Source: Alphaproteobacteria bacterium (lineage in GTDB: Bacteria; Pseudomonadota; Alphaproteobacteria; Caulobacterales; Aquidulcibacteraceae). From it: DNA of 64,000 bases. Below, in pieces: positions 44,454-48,217 of the stretch. Below the pieces are notes generated by a model. The model did not search any database and was not told the DNA's origin. It saw nothing but the letters and a program-made list of their open reading frames with translations. Where the stretch lies: positions 62,001-126,000 of the forward strand of contig JAGWZE010000006.1 of assembly GCA_018969015.1 (NCBI GenBank), in the 5' to 3' direction. The position numbers and the translations under genes are program-made. Numbering within the stretch: the first letter of the stretch is position 1; each line of letters begins with the position of its first letter.

Positions 44454-44626
44454 GTGCGTCTCCCATCCGGGCGGGAGCCTAACCGACGTATGCGCGGCGT
44501 CCAGAGGTGTGGCCACAGGGTGGGCGGCGACGCGCCACGGGGCCCGACTTGCCTTTGCCCGCTACCGTCCTGACCGCGGACGGCCTAAATGAAGGCCACC
44601 GAACGGGCGTGAGGCGCGAGGCGCAA

Positions 44627-45745
44627 ATGTCGGAATTGCATGCGGTAAGGCCCTGGCGGCGGATCGAGCGGCGCAAGAGCCGTCAGATCAAGGTCGGCGC
44701 GGTGGCGGTCGGCGGCGACGCGCCGATCAGCGTCCAGACCATGACCAACACGCCGACGCCGGACGTCGGCGCCACGGTCGACCAGATCCGCCGCTGCGAG
44801 GAGGCCGGGGTCGACATCATCCGCGTCTCGTGCCCCGACGAGGACAGCACCAAGGCGCTGAAAGACATCGTGAAAGCCGCCAAGGTCCCGATCGTCGCGG
44901 ACATCCATTTCCACTACCGCCGGGCGATCGAAGCCGCCCAGGCCGGCGCCGCGTGCCTGCGCATCAATCCTGGCAATATCGGATCGGCGGACCGCGTGCG
45001 GGACGTCGTCCAGGCCGCCAAGGATCACGGCTGCGCCATCCGCATCGGCGTCAATGCCGGCTCGCTCGAGGCCGATCTTCTGGAAAAATACGGCGAGCCT
45101 TGCCCGGAGGCGATGGTCGAAAGCGCGCTCGACCACGTCAACATCCTGCGGGACCACGACTTCCACGAGTTCAAGATCTCGGTCAAAGCGTCGGACGCGT
45201 TCCTCACGGTCGCGGCCTACACCGCGCTCGCTGAGGCCGTGGATTGCCCCCTCCATCTGGGCGTCACGGAGGCCGGCCCGGCCCGTATCGGCACGGTCAA
45301 GTCTTCGATTGCGCTGGGGAATTTGCTCTGGGCGGGGATCGGCGACACGATCCGCGTCTCCCTGGCCGCCGCCCCCGAGGAAGAGGTGCGCGTCGGCCAC
45401 GACATCCTCAAGTCGCTCGGCCTGCGCACCCGCGGCGTCAACATCATCGCGTGCCCGTCCTGCGCCCGGCAGGGGTTCGACGTGATCAAGACCGTCGAGA
45501 CCCTCGAGGCCCGTTTGGCCCACGTGTCCGAGCCGATCTCCCTGTCGATCATCGGCTGCGTGGTGAACGGCCCGGGCGAGGCGCTGTTCACGGACCTCGG
45601 CTTTACCGGCGGCGGCAAAGGGGCGGGGATGGTCTATCGGGCCGGCCGGCCCGACCACAAAATGGACAACGACCGCATGGTCGACCACATCGTAGAGCTG
45701 GTCGAAGCCCGCGCGGCCGAACTGCGGGCGGCTCGCCCGGAGTGA
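44627..45745 (+). CDS. ispG: 4-hydroxy-3-methylbut-2-enyl diphosphate synthase (flavodoxin/ferredoxin)
   Basis: 372 residues. The N-terminal TIM-barrel region starts [14 protein letters not shown]. The [4Fe-4S] cluster ligands are Cys276 and Cys279 (CPSCARQG) and Cys311 ([11 protein letters not shown]), with the conserved Glu in NGPGE as fourth ligand. It makes HMBPP in the MEP isoprenoid pathway. The ATG at 44627 follows GAGGCGCGAGG; an upstream in-frame extension does not match the family. A terminator-like hairpin follows the stop. Confidence 0.96.
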
Positions 45746-45750
45746 GCGGC

Positions 45751-45778
45751 AAAAACACTCCCTTTAGGAAGTTTTTTT
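45751..45778 (+). terminator. rho-independent-type terminator after ispG
   Basis: ACTCCC, loop TTTA, GGAAGT with one mismatch, preceded by five A and followed by a run of seven T. The stem is short, but the position six bases past the ispG stop and the T-run support a terminator. Confidence 0.5.
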
Positions 45779-45834: not shown

Positions 45835-46707
45835 ATGCGTAACGTGATCCTCCTCCATGCGCGTTCTGACGCCGCGCTGGCCGAAGAGTTGGTGTCGCGA
45901 AACCCACGCGTGGCCCTCGTTTGCGGGATCGACCGTTCGGCGCCCCCCGGCCATTTCGGCGAGCAGTTCCACATGGCGGCCCTCTGGTCGCGTGAAGCGG
46001 CGCTTGACGGTCTGGAATGGGTCATGGCGGAAGCGCTGGCCCATCGTGAACAGCCCTCGATCATCATCGTCGTCGATGGCGTGCCCGTGCCGGCCTGCCT
46101 TGCGCGGGCTGGTCAGCAGGTGCGCGTCTCGCCGATGACGGATCTCGCGGCCCTGTTCGAGCTGCTGTCTCCGCACGTCTCGGCCATCGTCGAAGACGAG
46201 TCGGATGAAGATCTTCTGGCCACGCGCCGTCGGTCGGTCGCGACGGCGGCCAGCGCGGCGTTCAGCATCGGGTGCGGCGCGCTGCTCGCCCATGCCGCCT
46301 CGCCCTACGGCCTGATTCCCACGGCGGCGACGCCCACGTTCACGCCCACGGCGCGCACCGTCGTAGCCCAGCCGGTCGTCCAGGCCGAGGAGACGCTGCC
46401 GGTCATCGAAGCCGTCGAAACGCGGTTCGAGTCGGTTCGGGCCCCCGCGGCCAGCGTCGCATCCTCGCCGAGCATTCGGGCCCGGTTCGAGCGCGTGAAG
46501 TCGATCGCCATCTCGGACATGCTGCTGGCGCAGCTGGCCCAGCGCGCTGATGAGCAGGCCCAAACGCTCTTCTCCGCGCCGCCGGTCGCTGTCGCGGCCG
46601 TCGCAGCCGCGGACGTGTCGACCGTGCGCCTCGCGTCCGTGACGGACACAACCCCGGTGAAGATGGCGCAATCGGACCTCGCCACGTTCGAGAACTCGAC
46701 GTTCTGA
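45835..46707 (+). CDS. membrane protein with possible degenerate TIR-like domain
   Basis: 290 residues, no family firmly recognised. Residues 3-20 ([18 protein letters not shown]) resemble the first strand and helix of TIR domains. [20 protein letters not shown] (49-68) resembles the WxxxE helix with the catalytic-position Glu (W62, E66), and SIIIVVDGV gives the following strand. The segment between is shorter than in canonical TIR domains. One membrane helix lies at about 137-157, then a Pro/Ala/Val-rich region and a low-complexity tail. A TACTAT box (45802-45807) may be its -10, after the ispG terminator. It stands alone between ispG and glmM. The TIR call is a hypothesis. Confidence 0.6.

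Positions 46708-46864: not shown

Positions 46865-48208
<1,344 letters not shown>

Positions 48209-48217
<9 letters not shown>

Follow-up and report, generated by a model that had tools for sequence, protein, structure and literature searches.

The gene at positions 45835-46707 of the window, the whole stretch of 64,000 nucleotides that was analysed, encodes a 290-aa protein whose N-terminal domain derives from TIR domains, a remote homology supported by sequence profiles and a predicted structure. We propose, with a probability of about 0.55, that this TIR-derived domain is probably anchored in the inner membrane, probably lacks enzymatic activity, and helps, in an accessory role, to regulate or organise envelope-sugar synthesis. 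In the family to which it belongs, TIR ancestry is accompanied by loss of the helix alphaB and, in most members, by loss of the catalytic Glu. The features of the region are given below.

44507-45745, plus strand: ispG (gcpE), the upstream neighbour, over the NCBIfam cut-offs of TIGR00612 and NF001540.
45757-45772, no strand assigned: imperfect hairpin in the ispG gap, with a T run after it when the plus strand is read by eye; the scan scored the minus strand alone.
45835-46707, plus strand: TIR-derived probable membrane protein, whole gene, 290 aa, from the ORF call and translation.
45835-46170, plus strand: TIR-derived domain, residues 1-112, predicted cytoplasmic, from hhalign to local TIR domains, AlphaFold and VIA.
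45868-45870, plus strand: D12, invariant in 24 of 24 family members.
45931-45969, plus strand: short loop, residues 33-45, at the site of the canonical TIR helix alphaB; hhalign gap, and no helix in the model between strands 26-32 and 46-51.
45985-45990, plus strand: W51-S52; W in 24 of 24 members, S in 21 and T in the other three.
46018-46032, plus strand: W62xxxE66, which falls on the TIR catalytic-Glu helix in the alignment; 4 of 24 members have the E, and the window copy alone has the W.
46075-46077, plus strand: D81, just past strand 4; 22 of 24 members have D here.
46234-46290, plus strand: possible membrane helix, residues 134-152, after RRR; hydropathy 1.59, borderline, clearer in nine relatives.
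46300-46704, plus strand: low-complexity tail by composition, residues 156-290, periplasmic if the helix is real.
46865-48217, plus strand: glmM, the downstream neighbour; TIGR01455 glmM at 609 bits, cut-off 448.

The 290-aa ORF is real, and its GC content was 0.71, 0.52, and 0.84 at codon positions 1, 2, and 3, respectively. An earlier note on this DNA had placed the gene between housekeeping genes, which proved correct, both flanking genes being over their NCBIfam cut-offs. The stop codon is 157 bases from glmM, and ispG possibly starts at 44627, as most relatives align from about residue 40. The note had also described a terminator ahead of the gene and a possible promoter of its own, and neither was recovered. 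No plus-strand terminator was scored in the ispG gap, the sole terminator-like match there was on the minus strand, and the promoter scan gave no sigma-70-like promoter for the gene. Read from the sequence, the inverted repeat has one C/A mismatch on the plus strand and is followed by seven T. The protein had 0 matches in Pfam (E up to 10, hence below the Pfam TIR cut-off), NCBIfam, PADLOC, and PHROGs.

Single-protein matches of the 24 family members to Pfam and NCBIfam were likewise not convincing. In Pfam, Nitro_FeMo-Co (two members, best E 0.01) came ahead of TIR_2 (two members, best E 0.05), and in NCBIfam nine families matched one member each, with a best E of 0.0074. Searching PDB sequences with the profile returned a designed protein at E 0.0034 and the TICAM-1 TIR at E 0.049 over 23 residues. 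The TIR-like N-terminus claimed in the earlier note was nevertheless borne out by profile-profile comparison with hhalign, in which the E-values refer to a single-pair comparison and not to a database search. Against 31 TIR_2 domains from related genomes, the window domain alone reached 82% (E 1.1e-5), the family profile 94.3% (E 1.1e-7, 91 columns, with a gap at alphaB), and the profile of 18 strict members 95.1% (E 3.4e-8, score 49.5); without the window copy, the strict family gave 95.2%. The family profile also reached the strong TIR_2 proteins G021:C78, G011:C16, and G002:C4 at E 2.5e-4 to 5.3e-4. An intermediate TIR-like group linked the two sides, with 98.1% to the family and 99.6% to TIR versus 13.8% to receivers, and most of this group apparently still has alphaB, as read from the sequence.

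A coincidental resemblance was ruled out, because decoys and column shuffles scored low. The best of 60 column-shuffled profiles scored 16.4 versus 49.5 for the 18 strict members. In hhalign against 30 receivers, the family profile reached 0.2%, the strict family 0.3%, and the window copy 0.7%; against 28 SIS domains (28 of the 30 loci of this decoy set were used), the strict family reached 0.2%. Thus, the sequence profiles ruled out a receiver domain, though a receiver came within about 1 Z of the TIRs in VIA, as well as an SIS sugar-isomerase domain, though Foldseek ranked SIS chains high.

The AlphaFold model of the domain was built from three alignment rows, namely the window protein and two proteins of L052 (JACAEE010000071.1), and had a pLDDT of 83.3 and a pTM of 0.79; with two rows, the pLDDT was 51, and that model was kept out of the structure searches. 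The three-row model is a five-stranded beta-alpha fold with strands at 4-9, 26-32, 46-51, 75-79, and 96-100 and helices at 10-22, 53-57, 61-69, 87-90, and 101-109. Structure prediction, which had been suggested as a check, therefore returned a TIR topology without alphaB, in agreement with the strand-helix order that the note had read at the N-terminus. The short middle remarked on there corresponds to the missing helix alphaB, seen in both the alignment gap and the model. Foldseek against the PDB gave no match at E 0.001 or better, and its top matches mixed Roco, TIR-STING, SIS, and receiver chains. In VIA, which is a second look at Foldseek's list, the best match was the Bacillus cereus TIR 8fz9 (Z 10.9, 2.5 A, 106 residues), followed by a succinyl-CoA synthetase chain (Z 10.1), BtTir 7uxr (Z 10.0, 110 residues), and then TIRAP and a receiver (Z 9.7 each). 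Although 8fz9 and 7uxr, as first and third matches, are alike to the window domain in fold, the identity is 12%. No paper on the Bacillus TIR structure was found in the open-licence literature. Considering that unrelated folds at Z 9.7-10.1 lie within about 1 Z of the best TIR, the fold alone is undecisive and the sequence profiles decide; the predicted fold agrees with TIR and is by itself no proof.

The WxxxE that had been pointed out at the catalytic-Glu helix is present in the window protein as W62xxxE66. However, conservation of E66, whose absence the note had counted as refuting, was not found: of the 24 members, 4 have E in this column, 3 have D, and 17 have other residues, among them the glmS-linked sister paralog with A, and only the window copy has W at position 62. 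The low-complexity tail stood as described, residues 156-290 being rich in A, V, T, S, and P. As for the one membrane helix of the note, a hydrophobic 19-mer (Kyte-Doolittle 1.7-2.1) starting at residue 128-154, mostly with basic residues before it, was clear in all nine relatives checked, whereas residues 134-152 of the window copy scored only 1.59, slightly below a tail stretch at 251-269 (1.65). The proteins of L063 (133 aa) and L215 (120 aa) terminate behind the domain, without a helix, so membrane anchoring is not universal; it is likely for most family members.

The three-row profile had matches in 15 of 60 genomes of the taxonomic family at E 0.01, and the profile of 24 N-terminal domains in 41 of the 60 at E 0.001, a wider count that takes in intermediate TIR-like proteins as well as some canonical ones. 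Above 50 bits, the latter profile gave 27 matches in 12 of the 60 genomes, 24 of which were its own rows. Two more genomes, G195 and G174, both outside the taxonomic family, exceeded 50 bits among 299 genomes of the order, while among 385 genomes of the class only the window genome (G000) matched at E 1e-9 in a scan that scored no more than about 11 candidates in each genome. Profile scans of named genomes gave no relative in the first and one (L052) in the second, and two scans of viral contigs gave none. Within the sampled genomes, the TIR-derived family looks confined to this order. The window genome carries two paralogs, a clear one on contig C9 and a weaker one on C44. It also encodes 12 TIR_2 proteins above the Pfam cut-off, and in several relatives the TIR_2 matches at E 0.001 number 16 to 21, which amounts to a large TIR expansion.

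In a tree of 66 domains, from which L039, L076, and L078 of the TIR set and L159 of the intermediate set were left out, the 24 members fell on one side of a branch with support of 92/83, not starred, and the bootstrap was unsettled. A single origin of the family is thus likely but not firm. The window copy and the glmS-linked paralog were sisters (98/95). For three members compared between G025 and G021, the whole-gene dN/dS was 0.28, 0.12, and 0.19 and that of the domain 0.19, 0.04, and 0.08, respectively, with a very high dS for the value of 0.08. The hldE-linked pair gave 0.27 for both the whole gene and the domain, and the control genes tkt and galU gave 0.12 and 0.18. The part after residue 115 had a ratio clearly above that of the domain in three of the four pairs. 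These ratios indicate purifying selection on the family in four relative pairs; the window copy has no close relative for such a comparison.

Because the 22 sugar seeds had been chosen by reading the family loci, gene neighbourhoods were counted by leaving one locus out, with seeds taken from the other loci only and the ABC-ATPase, glmS, and glmM seeds excluded. Within three genes on either side, 10 of 16 family loci had a sugar seed, whereas none of the 18 TIR_2 loci and none of the 15 intermediate loci did (Fisher p 6e-5 for family versus TIR loci and 1e-6 versus TIR plus intermediate loci). The family loci that failed were L061, L065, L066, L069, L147, and the window locus, the last because glmM was excluded as a seed. 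With all 22 seeds, the counts were 13 of 16, 3 of 18, and 0 of 15, respectively, and the three matches at TIR loci as well as that of L061 were generic ABC ATPases. Pfam counts over the 92 neighbours of the 16 family loci were 7 for RmlD_sub_bind, 7 for Epimerase, and 4 for Polysacc_synt_2 (overlapping sets), and 3 each for NTP_transferase and Glycos_transf_2. For the 108 neighbours of the 18 canonical TIR loci, none of these sugar families is listed, and since the list holds every family with at least two members, each occurred there at most once. These results show an enrichment of surface-polysaccharide and nucleotide-sugar genes around the family.

In these counts, L053, L056, L058, L059, L149, and L160 were dropped from the family set as syntenic with kept loci, L064 was dropped for a gene at the stretch edge and poor gene calls, and L171 and L173 were dropped from the controls. 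Genes were called by a simple GC-based script, and one antisense ORF in the window is in the seed-count gene list (93 genes) and absent from the Pfam neighbour set (92). Neighbour names were read from the sequence except where NCBIfam or Pfam counts confirm them. The tkt, hldE domain I, and rmlB neighbours were over cut-off, and galU scored 323.8 bits versus a cut-off of 326.8. The capD-like gene and the epimerase beside the C9 paralog matched sugar dehydratase/epimerase models below cut-off, and the wzy-like gene in the G021 cluster had no match.

The G021 cluster begins with galU, a small membrane protein, a transaldolase-type gene, two family genes, and tkt; farther on come the wzy-like gene, a capD-like epimerase, another two family genes, and then genes for a glycosyltransferase and a flippase. 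This arrangement recurs in G025 as far as its contig runs, and G016 and G009 have the galU-to-tkt part in common, G016 without a called transaldolase. Tandem family genes occurred at L053, L054, L056, L059, and L060. Elsewhere, hldE adjoins family genes in G015, G020, and G000:C44, rmlB lies directly downstream in G082 and, by reading, in G022, and capD-like genes are found in G020. By reading as well, the family gene of G016:C13 adjoins a mannose-1-phosphate guanylyltransferase-like gene and that of G007:C3 adjoins Wzm/Wzt-like genes. Six later loci were fetched, L213-L215 being family by sequence and L216-L218 intermediate TIR-like. Under the same rule, two of the three later family loci, which come from other families of the order, had a sugar seed: L213 has epimerases and Wzt, and L215 (only 41 bits) has a UDP-sugar dehydrogenase as well as DegT. 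The Wzm/Wzt-like genes of L214 fall outside the strict seed rule, and L216, L217, and L218 had no sugar seed nearby.

A similar small membrane protein lies beside galU at L053:5968-6288, L054:16370-16690, L056:9180-9530, and L059:5981-6319. The third family gene of the window genome (L063:1061-3575) is beside an NAD-synthase-like gene, as read from the sequence, and an hldE-like gene. The intermediate TIR-like genes of L216 and L217 are beside a gene read as polyprenyl-synthase-like, and the window copy adjoins the isoprenoid gene ispG.

Both glm genes have a family gene next to them in the window genome. The C9 paralog (L062) is flanked by a sugar epimerase gene and, directly downstream, by glmS, with all three genes on the same strand, and the window copy lies directly upstream of glmM, after ispG. 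Of 14 stretches fetched from relatives, 11 have glmS and glmM side by side in divergent orientation, with about 115-247 bases between them; in the other three stretches, glmS was not found. ispG was near glmM in none of the 32 relatives that yielded both genes: the closest pair sharing a contig is about 28 kb apart, and many pairs are split between contigs of draft genomes. At one time, two divergent family genes may have stood between glmS and glmM, and a split of the locus would have left each glm gene with one copy. We infer this ancestral glmS-family-family-glmM order and the later split, of which the intergenic DNA gives no trace: around the two glm-linked copies, no intergenic similarity was found beyond short matches. 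Such a history would tie both copies to the same pathway.

How the domain may act is suggested by its conserved residues. H8 is kept in 21 of 24 members, and by the strand order of the model H8, D12, W51-S52, and D81 would lie at the C-terminal ends of strands 1, 3, and 4. The C-terminal strand edge is the usual ligand-binding edge in proteins of this fold. We therefore propose that the domain would bind a cytoplasmic metabolite or a sugar-synthesis enzyme at this conserved edge. With a single membrane pass, the domain would face the cytoplasm and the tail the periplasm, and the helix and tail would couple binding to envelope assembly. For the window copy, the partner pathway would most likely be GlmS-GlmM, which supplies the UDP-GlcNAc precursor. 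As a counter-point, the window copy is beside central amino-sugar genes, outside any polysaccharide cluster; moreover, neighbourhood is not function, and the company of sugar genes alone does not establish a role. More tentatively, as a less likely possibility, the TIR fold may have been turned within one bacterial order into non-catalytic membrane sensors of sugar-nucleotide supply that set envelope polysaccharide synthesis, with separate copies for GlmS and GlmM.

Catalysis is a quite unlikely alternative for this protein. As an active TIR NADase or defence protein, it would cleave NAD with residues 1-125 through E66 and use the tail as an envelope sensor. The window protein retains W62 and E66 at the right helix, so it might itself cleave NAD, and its TIR ancestry and the 12 TIR_2 proteins of its genome fit such an activity. 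However, most of the family has lost the Glu, as has the glmS-linked sister, and alphaB is missing, while an excerpt of PMC8635717 links the Glu and the BB-loop interface to activity: mutating the catalytic Glu of SARM1 abolishes NAD cleavage there, and the BB-loop interface is important both to the activity of plant TIRs and to TIR assembly. PADLOC returned nothing for the window protein, for the 24 members, or among the 10 neighbours scanned around the two glm-linked copies. Together with the surface-sugar genes enriched around the family, this speaks against the defence protein considered in the earlier note, and we infer from the residue pattern that family members would not cleave NAD. 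Signalling, the other role considered there, may hold in a broad sense. Divergent TIR-like NADases do exist. The DUF4062 proteins, in the portion of PMC13174449 available, resemble the family in being divergent and found by remote homology; unlike the family, in which the Glu is unconserved and the context is sugar synthesis, they are reported to have a conserved Glu, to cleave NAD, and to act in phage defence.

Rather doubtful is a purely structural role, in which TIR-derived domains at the membrane would stack with one another or with canonical TIR proteins and so gather sugar enzymes, no small molecule being bound. TIR domains do assemble by self-association according to the same excerpt of PMC8635717, family genes occur in tandem, and relatives carry as many as 21 TIR_2 matches at E 0.001. 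If the family were scaffolds, the scaffold TIR domains of MAL and MyD88 would be its likeness; however, that excerpt has them assembling via surfaces including the BB-loop and alphaB, and the window domain lacks alphaB and a normal BB-loop. That the gene is instead a decayed TIR gene drifting near housekeeping genes and doing little is hardly probable. The unconserved catalytic residue, variable tails, and borderline membrane helix would suit decay, whereas the purifying selection in four relative pairs (the window copy not among them), the invariant D12 and W51, and the non-random neighbourhoods argue against it.

Set beside TIR_2 (PF13676), the family is alike in strand and helix order, in the positions of D12 and WS, in the profile-profile match, and in the linking intermediates. 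It is unlike TIR_2 in lacking alphaB, in having mostly lost the Glu, in usually carrying a membrane helix and a low-complexity tail, in falling below Pfam detection (no match for the window protein and, for 2 of 24 members, a best E of 0.05), and in its sugar-gene context. In the parts of PMC8635717 and PMC13174449 available, the TIR domain is mainly an NAD-cleaving or scaffolding part of immunity. If the regulator or organiser role proposed here is true, the TIR fold would be at work outside immunity, an immune-type fold reused for envelope building. A lineage that lacks the catalytic Glu and the assembly helix, and yet is selected and near envelope-sugar genes, would offer a straightforward genetic test of what is left of a TIR domain after catalysis. 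We recognised no description of a TIR-derived family at sugar loci in the open-licence literature.

The intermediate TIR-like proteins differ in architecture, as read from the sequence. At L142, L145, L146, L148, L150, L155, L156, and L158, the intermediate TIR-like domain belongs to a longer protein that also carries a hydrophobic segment and, at the C-terminus, Sel1-like, TonB-C-like, or other parts. At L152, L159, and L218, one chain combines a degenerate TIR-like domain, hydrophobic segments, and a canonical-looking TIR domain.
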